20,792 nt of DNA. Source: a virus. Positions 8,650-20,681 of the stretch are shown here, in pieces. Numbering within the stretch: position 1 is the first letter of the stretch; every line of letters begins with the position of its first letter. The position numbers and the translations under genes were made by a program. The notes beneath the pieces are model-generated. The model had not been told where the DNA came from. It worked only from the letters and a program-made list of their open reading frames with translations, and did not search any database. The stretch covers positions 1 to 20,792 of the IMG/VR virus record IMGVR_UViG_3300033144_002384. One strand, written 5' to 3'.

Positions 8650-11600
8650 ATGCCAAACCTACATGAAATCTTTAAGAACTTACCTAAGCAGCCTGCACCT
8701 AGGTCTAAGAATCCCTTTGCTCAAGCAGCCACACAGATAACAGGTGGTGTGAAAGAGGGAACTCTTGGGATCATGAAGGGTATGTCTGACCTTGGAGTCG
8801 CTACTGGCTCTGTGTTCGGTGATGAGAAGCTTAAGAAGAAGTCCGAGAAACTCTCCCAATACTTTGCAGGACAATTAAACAGACCTGATGTTGTCAAGGG
8901 CCGTGAGGTTATGGCTAACTGGCAGAACCCGGTACAGAAGTCTCTGCGCCTACTGGGTAACGCTGCGCCTTCTATTGTATCAGCATGGACAGGTGGAGGC
9001 ATAGGTGCTGCTGTTGGTCGTAAGGCTTTAGCTGGTAAGGCAGGGAGATCCCTACTAGCTGGTGGGTTGAGCAAGTTTGGGAAGGATGTAACGAGAGCAA
9101 ACCTAACCAAGTATGCTCCGAAGGTAACAGGGTATCTTGGTGCTGTCGCTGGCTCTATACCACTGGGTACTTCCATTGCTGGTTCGTATTGGGAGGAAGG
9201 TGTTGCACATGGCAAAGACCCTAAGGACAAAGGTCACTATGCTATGGCTCTCACCGACGGGGTTGCACAGTCCTTACTTGAAGCCATGCCATTCATGGGT
9301 TGGATGAAGGGTGGGAAGCTCCATAAGAGAGTGCTAAGAACAGCACTACAAGAGGGTGGTGAGGAAGTTATACAAGGGTTTCTTGAGAACTCCTTAAAGA
9401 TCGTTGGTTGGAAGGGAACAGAGAACCTTTACAATGACATGATGACAGGCATAGCTGAAAACTTTGTAGCTGGTGCGCTGTCTGGTGGTTTACTGGGTAC
9501 AGTCCCACGCTTGTCTGTTACCAGAGCTGATATGATCCACGACATTAAGAACAACGTTGGTAAGACAGTCTATAAACAAGCAACAGAACAAGGACACATG
9601 ACCAACGGTGAGCCTACCACACTTGAGCAAGTCATGGAAGTTACGGAAGCCCTTGTTAAAGAAGTTGACATCCACGATGACCTCTTACTACCAGTGCTGC
9701 AGAAGAAGTTAAAAGAATCTATGGGTATGAAGAGTGAGAAGAAAGCTACCGGAGACCACGAGGTTGTTCAGAGAGCGAAGATACAGGACGGTGCCATTGC
9801 TTCTACATCAGATGATACCTACGCACGTAAGCCTATTGGCAGAGATGTTAAGCGAGAGGAGAACAGACGGTCAAGGATTGAGTTTGTTTGGCAGGACATA
9901 CAATATAAGATTGGTGGTAAGTTTGTGGAGTGGTCTAAGATACCGGAGATCATTCGTTGGAACATACAGAACAACCCCAAGATGAACATTGTTAAAGACA
10001 TTGCAGGTAACTTAAAACAAGTTGCCGACGAGGAATTAGATAGATTTATTGTACACACTAAGGGACGAGAGAACTACAGCAACCCATTAGCAGATGTATT
10101 CTTTGGACCATTAAGACAGCAAGAGACTCAGACATGGAAGAACAGCTCCGTAGAACAAGAGGAGAAGGCCGGCATACATGGTGACATATGGATACGTGAC
10201 TTACCAGAGCAGATCAAGAAGCTAGGGTTAAACCCTCGTGAGATTGAGTTCGTAGGTGCAGGTTCAGACGATGCTCTTAAAACTTTCATACAAGTATGGA
10301 ACAAGCAGAACCCCGACAATCAAATAGTCCTCACCAAGCAGGCGTTGGGAGCTAAGGTCAGACCAGGCAAGAGAGGTAAGGCTACTCTTCCTCTATGGGA
10401 TTACTTTAAGACCAGCCAAGAGAAACTGGTAGAAGATGGCACAGACTTGCTTGACCTTGCAGCAGAAGAAGCTATGGAAGGGTCTGAGAAGAAGGCAGCC
10501 TATGGCGACCAGCCTACTTACTTGAGGATGGTACACTCAGCCATAGAGAACGCTTGGAAGGCTGCTAATGATGTGGCTGATGGACACCCGGTAAAAGTAG
10601 CTGCTGAGATGTTGGCACAGATAGCCAATGGGAGAGTGTTCGTTGCTGCTGGTCTTGAGTTACCTACTGTCCAAGACGTAGCCGCGCTGTTCAGTGTATT
10701 TAGAAACCCCTTCCTTGAGATAACACAAGTCGTCTATGTCAACCCAGATACCAACAAGATCATTGAGCATGAAGCTATCACTGTAGGACTTCCCGGTAAA
10801 ACTGTTATAGACACAATAGGTACAGCCGAGAAGGCTAAGCGTATGGGAGCACAGTACTACGTCCTTCATAATCACCCTGGAGGAAAGGTTGCTCCATCTA
10901 AACAAGACATGACTACCCACAAGTCGCTGACAAAGGACAAGGCGTACAGAGGACACATAATCCTCGACCATAAAGACTTTGCTTTTATCAATAGAGATGG
11001 AACAGTGGATACTAATGTTCATGAGAAAGCTAAACTTACTGACTTCAACGTGGGTAAGAAACCAATACAGAAGCCGTTAGATTCTATTGAAAAGATAACT
11101 GATTTCACAAACAACCAGTTCAGGAATGGTAAGATCACCCTGTTCCTAACCAACATTGATAACCTCATTAGCGTTGTTTACATTGGTACTGACAATGTTG
11201 TAAAGGATATTCGTAGAGCTATGAGAGATAACATGGCTCAGGGTTATTTGATAGGAGCTAAAGAGGAAGCTGTAATACCTGACAACATACCCGAAGGTGC
11301 TCAAGGCGTTATCATCCACAATACTGATGGGTCATATGACGTTAGACCAGTTGACTTAGACAAGCAAACTTTAGTTGGGTGGCCTAGTGTTAAGAGTCAA
11401 CCGAAGGTATCGTTGACCACCATGCTCACCGAGCAACAGCCAGGCGAGGCTATCAAGGATGAGGAGCGTGTGCCTGGCATGTTGGGTCAGGGTTGGAAAG
11501 CAGAGGACAGGATATTCCCAGAAGGTACTCCAAGAGATGTGGTTGCTAAGCAAAGCCTGACACCTGAGACTAAGGAGAAGGGCAAAGCATTCAAAGATTT

Positions 11601-14600
11601 GATGAGGAAGAAGCAGGTCAAGTTCCCACCGGTTACAGAGGTGCCTGAGAAGGCTAAGGCACAGACACGCAACGCTAACCTAGTCAACGATGCTATGCGT
11701 ACGATCAATAAGGGCACGACACCTGTACCTGACGTCAAGTCTGTACCGGGTATGCTACGTCAAGCAGGGTTCTCTGTTGTCAGCAACGAAGAGTTTGAGA
11801 CGATGGAACAGCCTGTGGGTCAAATCATATATCACACCACCAATTCAGACGTGGCAGCACAGATAAGGGAGAAGGGTTTTTATCGTTCTTCTGATCCTGA
11901 ATGGTTTGGTAATTTTGGTAAACCTTCTGGTACGTGGTTTGGAAACCCTGCAGATTGGCAGTTCCTATGGGACGAGAATCTTGGTGGTAGGGATGCCGAC
12001 AAGAGAGAGGTTGTAGAGGCTAAGCTTGCAGACGATACTAAGGTGTGGGAAGGTGGCACTCTTGAGGATGTTGAGAAATACCTTGGCAAGAAGATAAGCT
12101 CCTATAGTTATAAGACAGAGCCTATTGTTGTTAGCGCACGCATGAAAGAGGCTATAAAGGAAGATAACCCACAATATACTGATGCAGAAGTAAGGGCACA
12201 TGCCTTAAAGTGGACCAAGGATGGTACTACTGTCAGAGGTGAGACGTTCCAAATGATGCGTGACCTTGTTCATAAGCTTAAGAAGGACGGCTATGATGGA
12301 ATCCATTACGTTCCTTCATTCCAGAGTCAAGACTACAGCATAAGTAACATGAGTTATATTATGAATAATCCTTGGGAAGGATGGGATGCTGAGTCCACAG
12401 TCATATGGAATAACGAGAAGATTTATGTGGCAGGTCAGCAAGGCACAGTTGACCCCAACAGTCAGAGTGAAGGTGGTGACATAGCTGAGCTTGCCCAAAC
12501 CATCAAGCCTGTACTATCTGAGGTGGTTGGTAACATCAAGGTTCCGCTTGGCAGGGTAGGCGAGACCACTCCGGGCAAAGGTATATGCGACAGGACGTGT
12601 CAGGTCATGGTGGAGACGCTCAAGAAGGCTGGCTTCATTGCCAATGTCAAGGAGATCAAGGCTAAGTCACCTGTGGGACCCTTCCAGATTACCCATAGAG
12701 TAGCTCAGGTTGTCCTCAATGGTGCGAAGTACCTCATAGATGACCCTCAGCATAGGTTTATAAAGGAAGGCGGTAAGGACGAAGGTGGCTGGTTGTCAGG
12801 TCATGACCCAATGAGGCATGGGTTTGAGGGGCCCTTCCAGCCATACGGTGGGATGGTTGAGGATATTGGCGACTTGGCTCAAATGTTCACAAAGGAAGGG
12901 TTATACCTAGAGGACTTTGACACTACTCTTAAGTTCACTGACATTGAAAAGAGAGGTGCTTACACCTACGGTAAGATTAAAGGTGACCCCAACCATGTTG
13001 TAAGAATACAGACGCAAGACATAGAAACTGGCTCAGGATATTCCATTGAGTACAGGATGATAACTGGTGCAGCCGTGTGGATCAAGGAGTTCTTCCAGCC
13101 TGAAGTCTTTGAGGAGAACGAGGTAACGTTGAAGGCGTACAAAGACGGTACCATAGGAACGGACATCAAAGGGGTGGAAGTGTTGAGCCATAACACATGG
13201 CAGGTAGGCGACAAGTACATACCAGGTGCTAAAGGCACTGCTAAACAGCCAGGTCCTATCCAGCTCCCACAACAGACTCCGGGTAAGAAGCTCAAGGGTG
13301 AGGAGAAGTGGAAGGCAGAGCAAGCCTACCGAATGACTATTACTGATGCGATTAACGAGAGGATACTGAAGGAGGAGAAGGCAGACCTAGAGCTGACCAA
13401 ACCTAGCAAGACGAAGGAACAGCTCATCAAGGAACGTGAGGCTATGGCTAAGGCACCGGTTGAGGAGAAGGCGAAGCGTATCACCCAAGAGGATTTGCAG
13501 AGGATATTTAAGACTGGGGTCAAGCCTGACCTAAAGGTTGGCTTTGGTAAGAAGACAGGTGTAGAGCCAGTAGGAGCAGAGGCAGGTACTAAGTTAGGGT
13601 TTAAGGCAGACCTATTCCCATCTCACACAGCACTGATGGAAACGTTGGACGAGTTAAGCCGGCTTATGGATAGAGTTGAAGGCATTGGCACAGACGCTAC
13701 CATGAAGGTACGTAAGTTCTTCAAGAAGTTTGGTGGAGGGAAAGAGCTTGGGTACTTGCTGGATGACTTTATCAGAATGAACACGGCTCCGTTAGCTGAC
13801 CCACTTGCCAGTCCTGAAGGGTTCAAGGAAATCAACTCCTTCTCTATTATAGACCTGCTCAACGAACTGGGTGAGCTTGGGTTCATGCCCGGTGATGAGA
13901 TACACGCCACTGGAACGAACTTAGCCAAGAGCATACACGCAAGACTTGAGAAGATATTTTCAGAGGTTGATGACAAGAAGAAGATGAGAGCTAACGCAGA
14001 GGCTATTGAACAGATCCGTTCTATCCTATGGCACATCAACTCTGACCCTGACATCATGACACGCTATGAACTGGAAGCCAGCGTACGAGGTGAGTACCAA
14101 ATCTTTGGAGAGAGTGGACAGCTCGTCAGTGAGATAGCAAGAGCCAGTAGGTTTAAGACCTACGTCATCATGCGTCGTGTCCTGTCATACTACAGCAAGT
14201 TAACCGGTATGACTGATGCTCAGATGAATAAGAAGTTCGGTACTAACTTCTCCAGTAACCCCAACGATGCCATGCTCAACATGGATAAGGTTGAGACACC
14301 ATTCCGACAACAAGCTAAACAGACAGCCAAAGAGATTAGAGAGGGTGAGACTGGGTACACATGGTTTGGAGCAGTAGGTAGAATCGGTACCAAACGTGTT
14401 GGTATCATACCTCACCTTAAGTCATTCCTTAAAGACAAATCTCTCAGCTCCCAAGACGCTGAAGCCATACAGACTAAGATTGATGAGCTAGAGAAGGTCG
14501 TTAAGTGGATGGAAACAGGCTCTGAGACAGAGTTAAAGGGTGAAGCTAAGTATGAACTAGGCAGGTTCAAGGGGATAACAACTCTCCGTGATGAGTTTAC

Positions 14601-17600
14601 CGACGAGCAGAGAGCAGCAATGAGAGAGGAGTGGAAGAAGGCAGGTGGTGTATGGTTCTTTAAACCACACGCAGTCTTTGACATCATTGACAACTCCCAC
14701 AACGTATTGCAAGCAGGAGCTTATGAGATTATACCAGCCGATCCAAAGAACGAGTGGAGAGTCCGGTTATCACAAGATGGTGGGAAGACTGGGCCTGTCA
14801 TATTACTGACTGACATAGAGTCAGAGTTTGTGACAAGGAATCAAGGCAAGGGTACACCAGCTCAAGGTAAGAAGTATGCTGTCAAGAGCTTTACTAAAAA
14901 CATTGCCCTCTACACCAAGGCAGAGATAAGAAGCATCATTGATAACAAGCTCATCCCTGGTCGAGCACCGGTCAATGAGTTCTTGGAAGCTCAGAAGAAG
15001 AAGAAGAACGCACGCAAGAAAAAGTACGCTTCCCTTATATCAGAGATCAAACGGCTGTCTGGTAAGAAGCGTGACGCAACAACCGCCAAAGCATTCAAGA
15101 GTTTGGAAGCCAAGCATGGCAAGTGGGAGTTCAAGATAGCCATGTCTATGGTTGAGAATGAGATGGTTAAGACAGCAGATGCTAAGGCACGTCAAGCAAT
15201 GCTCATGGAGATGAAGCGAGAGAACGCAGAGGAGGCAGAGCGTGAGAGGATAGCTGAAGGTGGTAAGCCACAAGGTATCAAGAAAACATTTGCCGTACAG
15301 TCAGAGTTCACGATAGGTGATGAGAGTGAGATAGATAAACCACAGGCACAGCGTGAAGAGGAAGGTCTCACCGAAGAACCTATCCAGCCTAACACTGACT
15401 TTGAATTAGGACAGGACACATCTCAGGCAGCAGTTGACCAGAACAAGACGTTCAACGGTACGCCTACTGACAAGAAGGGAGAGAAGCATCCTACCAACGT
15501 GGCTAGGTTTGAGTCACGCAAGCTGAAGATGTACAAGAAGGTGGTTAACTTCTTCCTTCAGGACAGCGACGCTACCATGGACTTCTTAGGTAAGTGGGTT
15601 AAAGGTGGGGAGGAAGAGATCAAGAAGATGCAGGGTGAGGTTGCACCGGCTAGCAAGACTGTTATGGACATGGTCATTGAGACTGCCATTAAGGACAAGA
15701 ACTATGTCAAGTTGGCACAGCTCAAAGGATTCCAAGTACAGAACATTATCAGTCAAGAAGTCTTGAAGGAGATGAAGCGACTATACCCTGACCTATCGTT
15801 GGATGAGCAGAAGAAGAAACGCCTTGAGTGGATGGATTACATGAACGATTCTGGTGAGGAAATCATCCTTATCCCAGGCAACACCTTACAATACACGGTG
15901 TCTGACAAAGGCATTCGCCATCCTTACGAGGCGGGTGAGAAGCGTGTTCACGGTGAGAGAGATGCCAACGTTAAGAGGCTTACGGCATTGTACACGTTAA
16001 GGCATGGTAAAGAACCAACAGCTCAACAGAAAGCTGTATGGAAACACCACAGACCAGGGTTGGCTTATTTCAGTATGCTGACACCTGCCTTACAGAACAT
16101 TATTCTATGGAACAAGGCTAACGTTGAGGACACCATTTTCTTCGCTGCCACACCTGACGTACTGACCAGAGCTGACAACGTTAACAACAGAGCGGCCGGT
16201 TACTCACCGCGCATGTTCTACAAAGACGCAGAGAGCATGAACTCTAGCAATGGTGTATCACAGACCATAGGCTCTCAACGTGTCGCTGCTCGTAAGATGA
16301 GAACGTATGCAGAGTTTGCTGAAGAAACAGGTGGAGCTCTTAAGCCTGTTAAGAACTACGCTGCTAGCGCAGGTTGGTATACCAAAGAATATCTTATTCG
16401 TATCCACCAACAGAGCATCATTGAGCAGTTCAAGGGTGTACGTAATGCATCCAGTGACCATGACATAGCTGTCATCACCTACACGGAGGATGTTAGGACT
16501 CTATCAGAAGCTCTCGGGTACAAGTCACCTGCTGACTTCCTTGTTGACCAAGGGTATGATCGTATGGACAACGCTCAAGGACTGACAAAGCATTGGAGAG
16601 GTAAGTTCCTTCGTCCGTGGGTACACCGTAGCGTCCGGCACACTATCAACAGGTTCTATCTTGAACCACAGGAGAGGGTTGGAGTCATAGCTGAAATAAA
16701 TAAGTGGGCGGGTAGGATGAAGCGATTGATTATGATGATGCCTCACCAATTCGCCTTACAGATTACCTCGTCCTCTTGGTTGTGGGGTGAAGGTGACGCT
16801 GGTGAGAAGATGAAGAAGGCATGGGTCAATGGACTAGAGCCTATGTTTAATCCTGTCAAGATAGCTAAGGGCATGAAGCTTGGTAGAGACAGGCTGGAAG
16901 ATCCGTTTAAAGGACAGTCGGAGGACTACGAACAGAATGTTATAGACCAGAAGCTCCTAGAGTTATTCATCCGTCATGGACTACGAGCCATGAACCAGAG
17001 CTGGATGCAGGAAGCTCTCTTTGACACAGAGAAGTACGCTAAGCACCCTATGGATATGAACAAGCGTGAGAAGTATGAGGAGCTTGTCTTTGGTAAGGGT
17101 GGGCTGGACAACTATATCTTTGAGCAGTACATGGGCAAGGCTATCTATCGATACGCACAAGCCATGATGAACAGGTTTCAGAAGCAGAACTCTAAGCTGA
17201 CAGACGACGAAGCCGCACAGCTCGCCGTTAAGTTTGTCAACGATACCTCCGGTACTCTACCCAGCTACATCTACGGATCAGAAGGACAGTGGTTACAGTT
17301 CGCTTTGTTTGCTCGTGACTTCACCATGAACTTTGACCGACAGCTCACAGGTGGTGCGTATGGACTCATGCCTACTGCTGTAAGGGACAATCTCTACAAG
17401 ATGCATCCCAACGCTAAGATACTCAACCCGCTGTTCCATGGGGAGTCTACGACAGCAGAGATGGTGTTCCTTTCACCTTGGTACCGTAAGCATCTCGCCT
17501 ACACGACTGCTATTAAGGTAGGGTTGTTTGCTATGCTCCAGTTTGCCTTGTGGCATCACAGACCTGAGGATGAGAGGGAAGAGAAGGACAAGTGGATGTG

Positions 17601-18261
17601 GTTCAATGAGGTGAGCAAGAAGGCATCGATCAAGATGCCAGGCATAGGCCCTGATGACCATGACTACTACCTTGACCCTATCATTTGGCGTGAGCTTTCC
17701 CAGTTCATGAACCTCTTACCAGAGGAGTACGGTGGAAGAGGGATACCGGGAGTGGCTGTGTCTAAGATGGCTGTACCACTGAAGCTTATCTTTGATGCGT
17801 GGGCTAACGAGGACTACATGGGAACACCTATCAGAGACCCCGGTGCTAACCCAGGCAAGAAACTGGCTCAACAACTGTGGTATTCTGTCAAGCAGGTGCA
17901 ACCATCAGCATACAAGAGGCAACCAAAGGAACTAGGAGAGAACATACCAGCTCGTGTTGGTCAGGTGTTCGGTGTTCCTACCAAGCGTAGCGCGTACCCA
18001 AGAGGTACAGATGCGAAGGAGATGCGTGACCTTAGGAAACGACAGGCAACAACGACCTTCAAGAGAGGGAAGATCAGAGGGGATGTGAAGAATGCCTCTA
18101 TGGATCAGCTGGTAGACATGATGCTTGATGGGAAGATCGGTCAGGAGCAGTACAATAATGAGATCCTGCGCCGCAAGTTTACCCAAGGATACTTCATGAA
18201 AAGGAACTACAAACGACTGCTTCAAGATGAACTAAAATACGAATCTTTATATGGTGAATAG
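8650..18261 (+). CDS. Giant polyvalent protein: RadC-JAB, ART-like, papain-like domains
   Basis: One uninterrupted frame of 3203 residues, about 46% of the window, starting 1 nt after the preceding stop. Visible order: helical region with Gly/Ala-rich hydrophobic stretches (about 1-300); unknown globular part (about 390-600); RadC-like JAB/MPN+ domain (about 680-785; E690, H740-N-H742-P-G-G, S750, D753); ADP-ribosyltransferase-like domain (about 1055-1260; Y1061-H1062-T, G1214-Y-D-G, E1248); candidate papain-like domain (about 1300-1380; C1313/C1317, H1349, D1364/D1365); long helical, charged region with a Lys-rich stretch near 2113-2130; and a conserved-looking C-terminal helical part (about 2400-3203) with one hydrophobic stretch near 2953-2969. 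This matches the 'polyvalent protein' class of phages and plasmids, where enzymatic domains acting on host targets are joined in one protein delivered with the DNA. Delivery in the virion is inferred from its place after the internal virion genes. No lytic transglycosylase or HExxH motif was seen. Confidence 0.85.
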   Translation: MPNLHEIFKNLPKQPAPRSKNPFAQAATQITGGVKEGTLGIMKGMSDLGVATGSVFGDEKLKKKSEKLSQYFAGQLNRPDVVKGREVMANWQNPVQKSLRLLGNAAPSIVSAWTGGGIGAAVGRKALAGKAGRSLLAGGLSKFGKDVTRANLTKYAPKVTGYLGAVAGSIPLGTSIAGSYWEEGVAHGKDPKDKGHYAMALTDGVAQSLLEAMPFMGWMKGGKLHKRVLRTALQEGGEEVIQGFLENSLKIVGWKGTENLYNDMMTGIAENFVAGALSGGLLGTVPRLSVTRADMIHDIKNNVGKTVYKQATEQGHMTNGEPTTLEQVMEVTEALVKEVDIHDDLLLPVLQKKLKESMGMKSEKKATGDHEVVQRAKIQDGAIASTSDDTYARKPIGRDVKREENRRSRIEFVWQDIQYKIGGKFVEWSKIPEIIRWNIQNNPKMNIVKDIAGNLKQVADEELDRFIVHTKGRENYSNPLADVFFGPLRQQETQTWKNSSVEQEEKAGIHGDIWIRDLPEQIKKLGLNPREIEFVGAGSDDALKTFIQVWNKQNPDNQIVLTKQALGAKVRPGKRGKATLPLWDYFKTSQEKLVEDGTDLLDLAAEEAMEGSEKKAAYGDQPTYLRMVHSAIENAWKAANDVADGHPVKVAAEMLAQIANGRVFVAAGLELPTVQDVAALFSVFRNPFLEITQVVYVNPDTNKIIEHEAITVGLPGKTVIDTIGTAEKAKRMGAQYYVLHNHPGGKVAPSKQDMTTHKSLTKDKAYRGHIILDHKDFAFINRDGTVDTNVHEKAKLTDFNVGKKPIQKPLDSIEKITDFTNNQFRNGKITLFLTNIDNLISVVYIGTDNVVKDIRRAMRDNMAQGYLIGAKEEAVIPDNIPEGAQGVIIHNTDGSYDVRPVDLDKQTLVGWPSVKSQPKVSLTTMLTEQQPGEAIKDEERVPGMLGQGWKAEDRIFPEGTPRDVVAKQSLTPETKEKGKAFKDLMRKKQVKFPPVTEVPEKAKAQTRNANLVNDAMRTINKGTTPVPDVKSVPGMLRQAGFSVVSNEEFETMEQPVGQIIYHTTNSDVAAQIREKGFYRSSDPEWFGNFGKPSGTWFGNPADWQFLWDENLGGRDADKREVVEAKLADDTKVWEGGTLEDVEKYLGKKISSYSYKTEPIVVSARMKEAIKEDNPQYTDAEVRAHALKWTKDGTTVRGETFQMMRDLVHKLKKDGYDGIHYVPSFQSQDYSISNMSYIMNNPWEGWDAESTVIWNNEKIYVAGQQGTVDPNSQSEGGDIAELAQTIKPVLSEVVGNIKVPLGRVGETTPGKGICDRTCQVMVETLKKAGFIANVKEIKAKSPVGPFQITHRVAQVVLNGAKYLIDDPQHRFIKEGGKDEGGWLSGHDPMRHGFEGPFQPYGGMVEDIGDLAQMFTKEGLYLEDFDTTLKFTDIEKRGAYTYGKIKGDPNHVVRIQTQDIETGSGYSIEYRMITGAAVWIKEFFQPEVFEENEVTLKAYKDGTIGTDIKGVEVLSHNTWQVGDKYIPGAKGTAKQPGPIQLPQQTPGKKLKGEEKWKAEQAYRMTITDAINERILKEEKADLELTKPSKTKEQLIKEREAMAKAPVEEKAKRITQEDLQRIFKTGVKPDLKVGFGKKTGVEPVGAEAGTKLGFKADLFPSHTALMETLDELSRLMDRVEGIGTDATMKVRKFFKKFGGGKELGYLLDDFIRMNTAPLADPLASPEGFKEINSFSIIDLLNELGELGFMPGDEIHATGTNLAKSIHARLEKIFSEVDDKKKMRANAEAIEQIRSILWHINSDPDIMTRYELEASVRGEYQIFGESGQLVSEIARASRFKTYVIMRRVLSYYSKLTGMTDAQMNKKFGTNFSSNPNDAMLNMDKVETPFRQQAKQTAKEIREGETGYTWFGAVGRIGTKRVGIIPHLKSFLKDKSLSSQDAEAIQTKIDELEKVVKWMETGSETELKGEAKYELGRFKGITTLRDEFTDEQRAAMREEWKKAGGVWFFKPHAVFDIIDNSHNVLQAGAYEIIPADPKNEWRVRLSQDGGKTGPVILLTDIESEFVTRNQGKGTPAQGKKYAVKSFTKNIALYTKAEIRSIIDNKLIPGRAPVNEFLEAQKKKKNARKKKYASLISEIKRLSGKKRDATTAKAFKSLEAKHGKWEFKIAMSMVENEMVKTADAKARQAMLMEMKRENAEEAERERIAEGGKPQGIKKTFAVQSEFTIGDESEIDKPQAQREEEGLTEEPIQPNTDFELGQDTSQAAVDQNKTFNGTPTDKKGEKHPTNVARFESRKLKMYKKVVNFFLQDSDATMDFLGKWVKGGEEEIKKMQGEVAPASKTVMDMVIETAIKDKNYVKLAQLKGFQVQNIISQEVLKEMKRLYPDLSLDEQKKKRLEWMDYMNDSGEEIILIPGNTLQYTVSDKGIRHPYEAGEKRVHGERDANVKRLTALYTLRHGKEPTAQQKAVWKHHRPGLAYFSMLTPALQNIILWNKANVEDTIFFAATPDVLTRADNVNNRAAGYSPRMFYKDAESMNSSNGVSQTIGSQRVAARKMRTYAEFAEETGGALKPVKNYAASAGWYTKEYLIRIHQQSIIEQFKGVRNASSDHDIAVITYTEDVRTLSEALGYKSPADFLVDQGYDRMDNAQGLTKHWRGKFLRPWVHRSVRHTINRFYLEPQERVGVIAEINKWAGRMKRLIMMMPHQFALQITSSSWLWGEGDAGEKMKKAWVNGLEPMFNPVKIAKGMKLGRDRLEDPFKGQSEDYEQNVIDQKLLELFIRHGLRAMNQSWMQEALFDTEKYAKHPMDMNKREKYEELVFGKGGLDNYIFEQYMGKAIYRYAQAMMNRFQKQNSKLTDDEAAQLAVKFVNDTSGTLPSYIYGSEGQWLQFALFARDFTMNFDRQLTGGAYGLMPTAVRDNLYKMHPNAKILNPLFHGESTTAEMVFLSPWYRKHLAYTTAIKVGLFAMLQFALWHHRPEDEREEKDKWMWFNEVSKKASIKMPGIGPDDHDYYLDPIIWRELSQFMNLLPEEYGGRGIPGVAVSKMAVPLKLIFDAWANEDYMGTPIRDPGANPGKKLAQQLWYSVKQVQPSAYKRQPKELGENIPARVGQVFGVPTKRSAYPRGTDAKEMRDLRKRQATTTFKRGKIRGDVKNASMDQLVDMMLDGKIGQEQYNNEILRRKFTQGYFMKRNYKRLLQDELKYESLYGE
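10687..11004 (+). other. RadC-like JAB/MPN+ metalloprotease domain in giant protein
   Basis: Residues about 680-785. The segment H740-N-H742-P-G-G-K-V-A-P-S750-K-Q-D753 is the MPN+ zinc site (HxH...S...D) in the form seen in RadC (HNHPSG-x-x-x-P-S-x-x-D). Upstream, E690 in the strand 'NPFLEITQVVYV' is placed like the catalytic Glu, and 'HIILDHKDFAFIN' matches the RadC 'LDHIIV' strand. In other polyvalent proteins such domains are proposed to remove ubiquitin-like or other peptide tags; the substrate here is unknown. Confidence 0.8.
11812..12429 (+). other. ADP-ribosyltransferase-like domain in giant protein
   Basis: Residues about 1055-1260. Three signatures appear in the order of H-Y-E-type ADP-ribosyltransferases: strand 1 'IIYHTT' (H1062) followed by a helix and 'GFYRS'; then 'GTWFGNPADW' around 1094-1103, like the 'G-x-Y-F-(A/T)' NAD-pocket strand; then 'KKDGYDGIHY' (1211-1220) and 'ESTVIWNNEKI' with E1248 as the candidate catalytic Glu. 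The arrangement resembles ART domains known from phage polyvalent proteins. Activity is not proved; the second aromatic residue is W/F rather than a plain Tyr. Confidence 0.65.
12547..12789 (+). other. Candidate papain-like thiol peptidase domain in giant protein
   Basis: Residues about 1300-1380. 'GKGICDRTCQVMVE' provides two possible catalytic Cys (C1313, C1317) at the start of a helix. It is followed by 'THRVAQVVLNGAKYLIDDPQH', where H1349 starts a strand and D1364/D1365 end the next. A helix-Cys, then strand-His, then 'Y-(L/F)-I-D-(D/P)-P-Q' is the layout of papain-like/transglutaminase-like toxin domains (Tox-PL-like). The call is by motif order only and needs a profile search. Confidence 0.4.
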
Positions 18262-18264
18262 TAT

Positions 18265-18293
18265 TTGACAACGTTACGGTCCGGTGTTAATAT
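18265..18293 (+). promoter_or_regulatory. Sigma70-type promoter after the giant gene
   Basis: A perfect TTGACA (-35) at 18265-18270 is followed after 17 nt by TAATAT (-10, 4 of 6 consensus) at 18288-18293. It starts 3 nt after the giant gene's stop codon. Transcription would begin near 18300. This is the best host-type promoter I see in the window, and it stands at the border between the virion and DNA-metabolism modules. It lies upstream of a terminator, so the product could be a short RNA or an attenuated leader for the downstream operon. Confidence 0.6.
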
Positions 18294-18331
18294 CATTACA
18301 CCATGAGATGCAACATAACAAATCCTATCCC

Positions 18332-18361
18332 AGCTCGTCACTTCCTCGACGGGCTTTTTTT
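18332..18361 (+). terminator. Rho-independent terminator
   Basis: An 8-bp stem, AGCTCGTC (18332-18339) with GACGGGCT (18348-18355), contains one G-U wobble and an 8-nt loop. Seven T residues (18355-18361) follow, then ATTT. It would end transcription from the giant gene and also any RNA started at the promoter at 18265. The U-rich tail marks it as a + strand terminator. Confidence 0.75.
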
Positions 18362-18365
18362 ATTT

Positions 18366-18422
18366 GGGAGGTCCTCTCATGGGTATAAAAACGTAAGGTC
18401 GCAAGCCTTACACCTCCCGCCA
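18366..18422 (+). ncRNA. Structured leader element resembling tRNA acceptor/T arm
   Basis: GGGAGGT (18366-18372) pairs perfectly with ACCTCCC (18412-18418). Inside, GTAAGG (18393-18398) pairs with CCTTAC (18406-18411) around a 7-nt loop, TCGCAAG. The inner hairpin touches the outer 3' strand with no gap, as the T arm meets the acceptor stem in a tRNA, and the outer strand is followed by GCCA. The 20 nt between 18373 and 18392 cannot form a D arm plus anticodon arm, and the loop lacks the TTCRA consensus, so this is not a normal tRNA. It lies in the leader of the nuclease gene, between the terminator and the ribosome binding site. The structure is seen in the sequence; its function is unknown. 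Confidence 0.45.
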
Positions 18423-18438
18423 TTTCAGAAAGGATGTC

Positions 18439-19344
18439 ATGCTAGAAATCAGTAACAACTCCACCAGCATCTATCGCTCCTGCCAAAAGAAGTACTACTG
18501 GAATTACATCATGGGACTCAAGCCCTACAAGAAATCTACCGCACTCACACTAGGATCAATCGTTCACTCCGCATTTGATATGTACTACAGTGGGTTCTCT
18601 GAGGTTGAGGTAATGCAGTGGTTAGGAAATACCATTGACGAAGAGATTGCCAAGGCATCACCAGAAGAATCCGAGGGGTTAGTGATAGTAAAGTACACGG
18701 CTCTTGCCATGTGGTTGAGCTACCCTAAAGACCTGTCGATATTTGAGGAGATTAAACCAGAGGTTGAATTAAAGGTTGAACTAATCCCAGGAGTAAAGGT
18801 AGTTCTGAAGGTTGATGGGCTCATTAAACAAGAAGGCAAGCATTGGATAAGAGAGCTCAAGACAACCGGCATGTCGTTCCCGCAATTTGAGAACCGTTGC
18901 AAGTCATCCCCGCAGTGTTCCCTATATACATGGGCTGTCCGAAAGACTGGCATCCCAGTTGAGGGAGTCGTCTACGATTTCATTAAGAAACCCCTCCTAA
19001 GAAAACGAGTCAATGATACCCAAGATGATTTCGGTAAACGCATAGTTGATGACATGAAAGAAAGACCGGAGTTTTATTTCAAGCGTCATTACTCTTATCG
19101 TTCCGACGAGGAATTAGATTTGTTTGAAGCTGACCTCATTGAAACAGCCAAGGATATGTTGGTAAGGTTTAAGTCTGACGTATGGTATCGTAACACTGAT
19201 GCTTGTTGGAACTTTAACTCTGCCTGTCAGTACATGCCTATCTGTTTCTCTAAGAAACCAGATGAATTAACCATCAATGTTTATTATGAAAAGAAACCAA
19301 TCAACCCAGAGAAGGGAGGAGTACCATGTCAGAAGAGCAAGTAG
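18439..19344 (+). CDS. PD-(D/E)XK nuclease, Cas4/AddB-like, likely Fe-S
   Basis: A 301-residue protein with ribosome binding site AAAGGA (18429-18434) 4 nt before the ATG. Family marks in order: 'SCQKKYYWNYI' with C15 and 'LGSIVHSAFDMYY' with H43 (the RecB-family N-terminal helix pair); E108/E110; D126 in 'LKVDGLI'; E139-L-K141 in 'IRELKTTG', the E-x-K of the metal site; and Q159 in 'QCSLYTWA'. C256, C263 and C269 near the C-terminus, with C15, form the one-plus-three Cys pattern of Cas4/AddB-type nucleases that hold a 4Fe-4S cluster. It probably acts as a DNA exonuclease in recombination or replication, beside a Sak4-like ATPase and an SSB. Its end overlaps the next gene by 19 nt. The family call is firm; polarity and substrate are unknown. 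Confidence 0.85.
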   Translation: MLEISNNSTSIYRSCQKKYYWNYIMGLKPYKKSTALTLGSIVHSAFDMYYSGFSEVEVMQWLGNTIDEEIAKASPEESEGLVIVKYTALAMWLSYPKDLSIFEEIKPEVELKVELIPGVKVVLKVDGLIKQEGKHWIRELKTTGMSFPQFENRCKSSPQCSLYTWAVRKTGIPVEGVVYDFIKKPLLRKRVNDTQDDFGKRIVDDMKERPEFYFKRHYSYRSDEELDLFEADLIETAKDMLVRFKSDVWYRNTDACWNFNSACQYMPICFSKKPDELTINVYYEKKPINPEKGGVPCQKSK

Positions 19345-19559
19345 TACCAGATGCAGTACACGTTGAAGCAACAGAGACAGTTGACTCAGGCGAGACAACT
19401 ATCATTGGAGACCCTGCACCTACACCTGACCAGCAGGTAGCAAGTAAGGCAGACGTTGACGCTGTACTTGATGCAGTAATAGAACTAACAAAGGTAGTCG
19501 CTGAGAACACAAAGGAAAGTTCTAAGTGGTTTAGAGCTGGTAAGATGGGAGGAGTATGA
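19326..19559 (+). CDS. Small acidic protein of unknown function
   Basis: A 77-residue protein with a good ribosome binding site (GGGAGGAG) inside the end of the nuclease gene, overlapping it by 19 nt. The first 40 residues are acidic and Val/Thr/Pro-rich, probably disordered; residues about 42-64 look like an amphipathic helix ('DVDAVLDAVIELTKVV'); the C-terminus is basic. It has no known motif. It is coupled to the ATPase gene by an ATGA overlap, so it belongs to the same operon and may be an accessory factor of the recombination module (context only). Confidence 0.6.
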   Translation: MSEEQVVPDAVHVEATETVDSGETTIIGDPAPTPDQQVASKADVDAVLDAVIELTKVVAENTKESSKWFRAGKMGGV

Positions 19560-20305
19560 ACATAAAAGATGAGTGCAAACCAATAGGTAGTAAGATTGAC
19601 AGAGGTATTAGCATGACAGTATTTGCTAACCCTGGCATTGGGAAGACAACCTTTGGCTCAGGTCACTACGTCCTGAACTTGCAGAAGATCATGGCTAACG
19701 GAACAAGCGTAGAAGATGCAATGAATGACATCTATCGTTCCATCAGAACGAAGGAGTTGCCGTTCAAGTACATTGTTCTTGATAATGTGAGTGAGTTGTG
19801 CGATCAGTTAGTGAACCACTACACCACGTCAAGGAACAAAGACTTCCCGGAGATACGTGAGCATGGAGACACGGCTTACAAGTTCAGGGAATGGATACAC
19901 AACTGGCGTGACCTCGTGGAGATGGGTATAACTGTTGTGTTCAATGCATGGGAGCAGGACTACGACGTTGCTGTGTCGGACGGTAACGTTGCAACACGCA
20001 CTTGCCCTAAGGTTGGTAAGTCTAACGTGCCAAGTATCTGTGGACTATGTGACATCGTCGGACACTTAGAAGTCCACGAGAAATCGGGTAAGCGTTGGCT
20101 AAGGATTGGGCCAAGCAGACAGTACGTAACAAAGAGTCAGTTCAGTGGGTTAGAGGATGGTGAGGTCGCCGACCTACCGTCAATCATTAACAAAGTAATG
20201 GAGTTTGATTACTCAAGGGGGGATAAAAAAGATGCCAAAGTTACCACCACCGTCGGAAGGAAACACGATAGTACCAAGCGGGACCTACAAGGTTCAGCTA
20301 AATAG
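19556..20305 (+). CDS. Sak4-like P-loop ATPase (AAA_24 type)
   Basis: A 249-residue protein with a Walker A motif 'ANPGIGKTT' (24-32, K30-T31) and a Walker B-like strand 'YIVLDN' (D76). Then come 'WIHNWRDLVEMGITVVFNAWEQ' and 'PSICGLCDIVGHLEV' with a following 'RWLRIGPS', which match the order of RecA-like Sak4/AAA_24 phage ATPases. Sak4 proteins are single-strand-annealing recombinases that work with an SSB; such a gene follows here. Odd point: the segment between Walker A and Walker B is about 44 residues and seems to lack the usual second strand with its acidic residue ('LFLDxE'), so it may be shortened. The C-terminal 24 codons overlap the next gene in another frame. Confidence 0.65.
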   Translation: MNIKDECKPIGSKIDRGISMTVFANPGIGKTTFGSGHYVLNLQKIMANGTSVEDAMNDIYRSIRTKELPFKYIVLDNVSELCDQLVNHYTTSRNKDFPEIREHGDTAYKFREWIHNWRDLVEMGITVVFNAWEQDYDVAVSDGNVATRTCPKVGKSNVPSICGLCDIVGHLEVHEKSGKRWLRIGPSRQYVTKSQFSGLEDGEVADLPSIINKVMEFDYSRGDKKDAKVTTTVGRKHDSTKRDLQGSAK

Positions 20306-20681
20306 TTTTGAGCATGGATTAGCAAAGACAGGGACACCACAAATCTGTTGGAAGGCTAGTATCGTGGAGCCTGCAGATCATCTTGGTGTTACAATTGTAG
20401 ACTACACAGCCATGACAGACGCTGCAGTTTGGAGAGTCTCCAACCTCATCGGAGGTTTCGGTCTTAACTTCACACCTAATGTCGATACATCAACACCGTA
20501 CTTCGACCAGCTCTGCCAGGCATGTATAGGCCGAACGGCATACTGGAGAAACGAGGTTGGAAAAGATAAGAATGGTAATGACCGGAACAACATCAAGAAC
20601 TTCGAGGTTGATAAAGACCAAGAGGTTGTTGACTTCGCCGAGGAGAAGGATGCAGCAGCACCAGCTCAGTTCGAGGACTAA
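20232..20681 (+). CDS. DUF669-like single-stranded-DNA-binding protein
   Basis: I choose ATG 20232 (149 residues) over an upstream in-frame TTG at 20205, because a purine-rich G-run ribosome binding site (20216-20223) lies 8 nt before it. The pattern 'P-S-G-T-Y-K-V-Q-L' at 15-23, then 'KTGTPQICWKASI', 'LGVTIVDYTAMTDAAVWRVSNLI' and a C-terminal 'GNDRNNIKNF' strand matches DUF669-type phage proteins, thought to be OB-fold SSBs. The acidic tail ending in 'QFED' is like the protein-binding tip of SSBs. It overlaps the ATPase gene by 74 nt in a different frame. SSB plus Sak4 is a known phage recombination pair. Confidence 0.65.
   Translation: MPKLPPPSEGNTIVPSGTYKVQLNSFEHGLAKTGTPQICWKASIVEPADHLGVTIVDYTAMTDAAVWRVSNLIGGFGLNFTPNVDTSTPYFDQLCQACIGRTAYWRNEVGKDKNGNDRNNIKNFEVDKDQEVVDFAEEKDAAAPAQFED

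Follow-up and report, generated by a model that had tools for sequence, protein, structure and literature searches.

The stretch of DNA analysed here, referred to as the window, is the 20,792-base virus record IMGVR_UViG_3300033144_002384, a linear fragment. It contains a 3203-codon open reading frame (ORF; 8650-18261) for a product with a RadC-like JAB domain (PF04002), whose end precedes a promoter-like site. After position 18261 follow, in this order, the promoter-like site, a terminator-like hairpin, the element reported here, an exonuclease gene, a small ORF, a Sak4-like gene and an SSB-like gene. The exonuclease, the first gene of the operon (18439-19344, + strand), belongs to the PD-(D/E)XK group and is Cas4/RecB-like (PF12705, E = 1.5e-17; phrog_1218, E = 1.1e-26). 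The same operon encodes a Sak4-like ssDNA-annealing ATPase (19556-20305, + strand; phrog_124, E = 7.7e-30) and an SSB-like protein (DUF669; 20205-20681, + strand; phrog_378, E = 2.9e-4; PF05037, E = 2.5e-4). The start of the SSB-like gene is uncertain, since its ORF overlaps that of the Sak4-like protein. The latter (19556-20302) reads GKTTF-GSGHYVLN where its relatives carry about 26 extra residues past the Walker A motif, a shortening that would stem either from deletion of codons in frame or from faulty assembly. Elsewhere in the window, small ORFs that overlap one another at 1860-2378 look, from weak PHROG hits, like genes for a holin and for two Rz-like spanin proteins with a lipoprotein signal. 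A search of phage records by direct DNA similarity to the window returned no match.

The promoter-like site (18265-18293, + strand) reads TTGACA-17-TAATAT with a TG before the -10 (10/12 matches) and places the predicted +1 at 18300. As read from the sequence, an inverted repeat GGTGT-N10-ACACC over the -10 and +1 (18283-18302) is a candidate DNA operator. The related loci L027 (TTTTTTGAGT...ACTCAAAAAA), L032 and L033 likewise have inverted repeats about the -10 in front of the nuclease, and all of these, the window's included, are candidate repressor operators. Downstream lies an intrinsic-terminator-like element (18332-18361, + strand), consisting of a hairpin at 18332-18355 and a T7 run at 18355-18361, with a fold of -12.2 kcal/mol (z = -2.76). 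A leader ORF of 50 codons (18303-18455, + strand) begins after a leader of 3 nt, is open through the terminator and the whole structure described below, and has its stop beginning 14 nt past the point where the nuclease start codon begins. We considered and rejected programmed frameshifting at the U-run: both shifted frames, -1 and +1, run into a stop within about 12 codons of this run, and neither fuses to the nuclease.

At 18366-18422, the first-pass annotation had described a structure resembling the acceptor and T arms of a tRNA. The parts that it listed are all present. A 7-bp stem is formed by GGGAGGT (18366-18372) and ACCTCCC (18412-18418), and a 6-bp hairpin stem by GTAAGG (18393-18398) and CCTTAC (18406-18411), or 7 bp counting a T-G pair. 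The hairpin adjoins the outer stem with 0 nt in between, GCCA follows at 18419-18422, and the T-run of the terminator ends 5 nt before the stem. Between the 3' strand of the stem and the nuclease ATG at 18439 lie 20 nt (GCCATTTCAGAAAGGATGTC, 18419-18438). As RNA, the element has a minimum free energy of -21.6 kcal/mol; shuffles average -13.05 (sd 2.52), which gives z = -3.39, and none of the 200 folds as well, while the fold of the opposite strand is ordinary (z = -1.4).

What the annotation overlooked is that the 20-nt loop between the two stems (18373-18392) contains TCTCATGG, which perfectly complements CCATGAGA at the predicted 5' end of the transcript. The stem is therefore part of a larger crossing structure. 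Its strands, all on the + strand, are A (CCATGAGA, 18301-18308, at +2 to +9 counted from the predicted transcription start, where the leader ORF also has its start codon), B (GGGAGGT, 18366-18372, the former 5' acceptor strand), A' (TCTCATGG, 18375-18382, 2 nt past B) and B' (ACCTCCC, 18412-18418, the former 3' acceptor strand). Loop 3 (18383-18411) comprises the A-rich GTATAAAAAC followed by the GTAAGG/CCTTAC hairpin, the supposed T-arm. A and A' are exact complements over 8 bp, and the order A-B-A'-B' spans the terminator, which lies in loop 1. By sequence comparison and shuffling, the crossing helices in a 5' leader thus have the arrangement of an mRNA leader pseudoknot. When the two crossing stems with the best score are searched for blindly, without regard to the A/A' idea, the result is exactly A and B in the window and in four related loci, L020, L022, L025 and L026. 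Per 100 shuffles, equal or better crossing scores occurred 3 times for the window and 12, 1, 0 and 3 times, respectively, for these four loci.

The window alone is also compatible with another explanation, namely that B/B' exists merely as a local hairpin, stabilising the mRNA or flanking the terminator, and that A-A' is a chance match. B/B' and the inner hairpin account for all of the -21.6 kcal/mol. Taken by itself, the A-A' pairing of the window is only moderately significant (p 0.02-0.04), and its strength, matched in 6% of 1256 real hairpins from these genomes, is unremarkable. Against this explanation stands what is found in relatives: orthologous leaders whose sequences are independent have the crossing pair again, and two of these leaders show synonymous compensatory changes. 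We therefore regard the explanation by a local hairpin as unlikely, though it keeps an appreciable share of the probability.

The relatives come from the viral collection and were chosen by their nuclease, which is 43-66% identical to that of the window. Six of them have a comparable stem between promoter and first gene. In five (L020, L022, L025, L026 and L055), the same topology lies between promoter and nuclease, with both stems unrelated in sequence. The pseudoknot of the sixth, L023, is less sure: it has a 9-bp A-A' that abuts B' (p 0.08), and the head of its operon lies two genes upstream of the nuclease. Given B/B', and taking the larger value of two shuffles, the p value for A-A' is 0.043 in the window, 0.018 in L020, 0.004 in L022, 0.007 in L025, 0.015 in L026 and 0.001 in L055. 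The combined value by Fisher's method is 1e-7 for seven loci, including the weak L037, in which A-A' has just 5-6 bp and is not significant; kinship between L025 and L026 makes the loci less than fully independent, the sequences are few, and the B stems were picked by eye before A-A' was tested. Pairings as strong as A-A' are found among the 1256 real hairpins at 2% for L020, 1.4% for L026, 0.9% for L022 and 0.4% for L055. The distance between A' and the nearer B strand is 0-3 nt in 6/6 leaders (product of the shuffle values 1e-3), as coaxial stacking of the helices would require. There are two loop layouts, with A' abutting B in the window and B' in the other leaders, and loop lengths vary.

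A comparison of L025 with L026 is the one case of compensatory change, next to the recurrence with unrelated sequence. A CGG codon in strand A (Arg) is replaced by AGG (also Arg), and this is matched in A' by a change from CCG to CCT (both Pro), so that pairing and protein are preserved alike. Stem B/B' also differs at several pairs between the two loci and is fully paired in both. Together, these results make it likely that the pseudoknots of the relatives are real and, with slightly less confidence, that the one in the window is.

The structure has a limited distribution. No leader pseudoknot above background was detected in L024, L027, L029-L036, L053 and L054, save that L031 scores at the borderline, within coding sequence; L032, L033, L027 and others of the wider family lack the structure, which counts against the proposed reading. 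The collections searched contained no close relative of the window that includes the leader region, and the nearest relatives by structural genes (L002, L009 and others) hold no nuclease. Nuclease relatives in sequenced phages were set aside: they are about 25% identical, and the two inspected sit behind a DNA polymerase gene, so that their leaders are not comparable.

Some leaders have short words in common. Those of the window (18315-18346) and L055 (1877-1919) share ATAACAAATCCTAT and CACTTCCT, the second of which is complementary in L055 to the Shine-Dalgarno sequence of the nuclease, AGGAGGTG. The only other hit of ATAACAAATCCTAT...CACTTCCT in the viral collection, antisense in a DNA methyltransferase gene of L057, was judged to be due to chance. 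L020 (2889-2935) and L023 (2726-2795) have a 15-nt word, GTTACTTGTCCTTTC, in otherwise different stems, and CACTTCCTCGACGG in the terminator of the window (18339-18352) reappears in the L004 leader (16565-16578) exactly reverse-complemented, as CCGTCGAGGAAGTG.

The elements surrounding the pseudoknot recur as well. Promoter-like sites are found at the equivalent place in L020, L025 and L026, by pattern in L022 and L037, and by eye in L055 and L023. The terminator is more variable: the scan misses the hairpins of L025 and L026 because their loops are long, and neither L022 nor L055 has a clear one, which means that attenuation would not be common to all of the leaders. The leader ORF opens at +4 in the window and at +1 or +2 in L025, L026 and L055; L020, L022 and L023 have its ATG at +20 to +38, preceded by what may be a ribosome-binding site. 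The frame is open through terminator and pseudoknot in the window, L020, L025, L026, L055 and L023, where it stops between -12 and +14 relative to the downstream start codon (product of the shuffle probabilities for the open frame 2e-6, uncorrected for the choice of start codon). The encoded proteins have no match in Pfam or PHROG and are dissimilar between loci, except for those of L025 and L026, which are homologous (43% identity). These two leader ORFs (L025 2801-2998, L026 2809-2997) code for small zinc-finger-like proteins ending in CGC...LCxxHxRY, as does L024 2483-2566, likewise with no Pfam or PHROG match.

In each of these leaders, strand A lies between -26 and +26 from the start of the leader ORF. 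A is therefore probably unable to pair while a ribosome initiates on the leader ORF, and vice versa. Sequence comparison establishes the crossing complementarity, the fact that it is found again in leaders of unrelated sequence, and the placing of A on or next to the start of the leader ORF, along with the locations of promoter, start codons and terminator-like hairpin. That related phages keep the shape of the leader with different letters indicates that it probably regulates the recombination genes. More specifically, we infer that the leader pseudoknot probably gates translation of the leader ORF and coupled expression of the nuclease. A ribosome on the leader ORF would keep strand A single-stranded, and translation of this ORF would suppress the terminator lying inside it and deliver ribosomes to the overlapping nuclease start. 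If the leader ORF were unoccupied, read-through RNA would close into the pseudoknot; since A' is made after the terminator, the pseudoknot should form only in transcripts that extend past it. The closed form would hide the start codon of the leader ORF and lower coupled translation of the nuclease. A phage protein, for example the SSB-like protein of the operon, may stabilise the closed form as gp32 does in T4, which makes this protein a possible autoregulator. In the best explanation, taken as a whole, the element supplies the 3' half of an H-type RNA pseudoknot that sits in the 5' leader of the nuclease-Sak4-SSB operon and gates its expression; we estimate the probability of this at about 0.5.

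Regulation by a leader pseudoknot is already known, as in T4 gene 32. The gene 32 operators of T4 and RB69 are pseudoknots in the 5' leader, stringent in structure and relaxed in sequence (PMC535899). They share with the window that a phage leader pseudoknot with diverging sequence precedes a recombination or ssDNA-binding gene and overlaps a neighbouring ORF. The T4 operator, however, combines a compact pseudoknot of about 28 nt with UUAAA repeats, whereas the structure in the window covers about 120 nt, has a terminator hairpin in loop 1 and strand A at the 5' end, and precedes a nuclease as the first gene. The parallel could still extend to the mechanism: an ssDNA-binding or annealing protein of the operon would nucleate on the leader, coat it and repress translation of the nuclease, the leader ORF being incidental. 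An SSB-like gene does sit in the operon, and the T4 structure overlaps a neighbouring frame, too (PMC535899). In T4, however, more than 40 nt of unstructured UUAAA repeats are available; only 20 nt separate B' from the start codon here, no UUAAA-repeat tract is present at 18419-18438, and the SSB-like gene comes last among the genes seen rather than first. Such an operator is a candidate that we consider doubtful.

Other leaders offer partial parallels to the pseudoknot gate. In the repZ and repA systems of IncI-alpha and IncL/M plasmids, a leader ORF and a long-range pseudoknot lie upstream of the coupled gene; the pseudoknot activates translation and an antisense RNA counters it. These leaders resemble the window in combining a leader peptide with a long-range pseudoknot before a coupled gene. 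As in the window, the pseudoknots of the E. coli alpha operon (uS4) and of rpsO (uS15) include or abut the translation start site, but they have ribosomal-protein ligands and contain neither an embedded terminator nor a leader ORF. The structure of rpsO regulators varies widely (PMC10931766).

The leader might also act in cis on RNA polymerase, as an antitermination RNA that, like put of HK022, modifies the enzyme for the downstream operon. Like putL and putR, it is an early phage leader RNA beside a promoter; it lies just past a strong early-type promoter, as putL does (PMC9378689), and the operon is reached past a terminator. The put RNAs, however, are two stem-loops of about 70 nt with shared sequence and without such a pseudoknot, and act on later terminators (PMC9378689), whereas the stems here have no common sequence, no put-type shared stem sequence is found among the relatives' leaders, and the nearest terminator precedes the completed structure. 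This makes the antitermination reading improbable.

The first-pass annotation was right in seeing an RNA structure, and a role in nuclease expression, one of the options that it named, is the best reading, but tRNA mimicry, RNase P processing and CCA recognition were not borne out. A 7-bp stem, an abutting arm and an unpaired G before CCA invite the comparison, and RNase P can cut an RCCA-ended pseudoknot in vitro (PMC12710915). ARAGORN, however, predicts no tRNA in the window and 28 loci, no Rfam family reaches its gathering threshold, and a permissive Rfam scan yields for the element nothing but a telomerase match to the opposite strand, put down to chance. The 7-nt hairpin loop, TCGCAAG, lacks the T-loop motif TTCRANY, and the CCA that was expected to be kept is lost after the 3' stem strand in all six orthologous leaders; the bases past B' in L020, L022, L023, L025, L026 and L055 are, in no particular order, TTCC, ATTT, CCTCA, CTTC, ACTTC and TTTTT. 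The GCCA tail (18419-18422, + strand) is thus unconserved, and cleavage by RNase P, should this phage have it, would not be a trait that its relatives keep. It is very improbable that the element is a minihelix for RNase P or CCA-recognising enzymes to act on; an abutting stem and hairpin with CCA can imitate half a tRNA by chance. A DNA cruciform or origin is disfavoured because the helices of L022 and L023 hold G-U pairs on the + strand only, and no repeats of a type III toxin-antitoxin RNA were seen.

It is a tentative suggestion, and on balance a doubtful one, that a pseudoknot free of sequence constraint, with strand A at the 5' end of the message as the leader-ORF start site and a terminator in loop 1, represents a class of phage leader RNA that has not been described before. 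If it does, a single ribosome-binding event would set both terminator read-through and coupled translation of the recombination operon. A leader that keeps its shape while its letters turn over is invisible to similarity-based motif searches; the window, L020, L022, L025, L026, L055 and probably L023 provide a concrete set for testing. Should the proposed mechanism be true, uncultured phages may time single-strand-annealing recombination via translation of a leader ORF.
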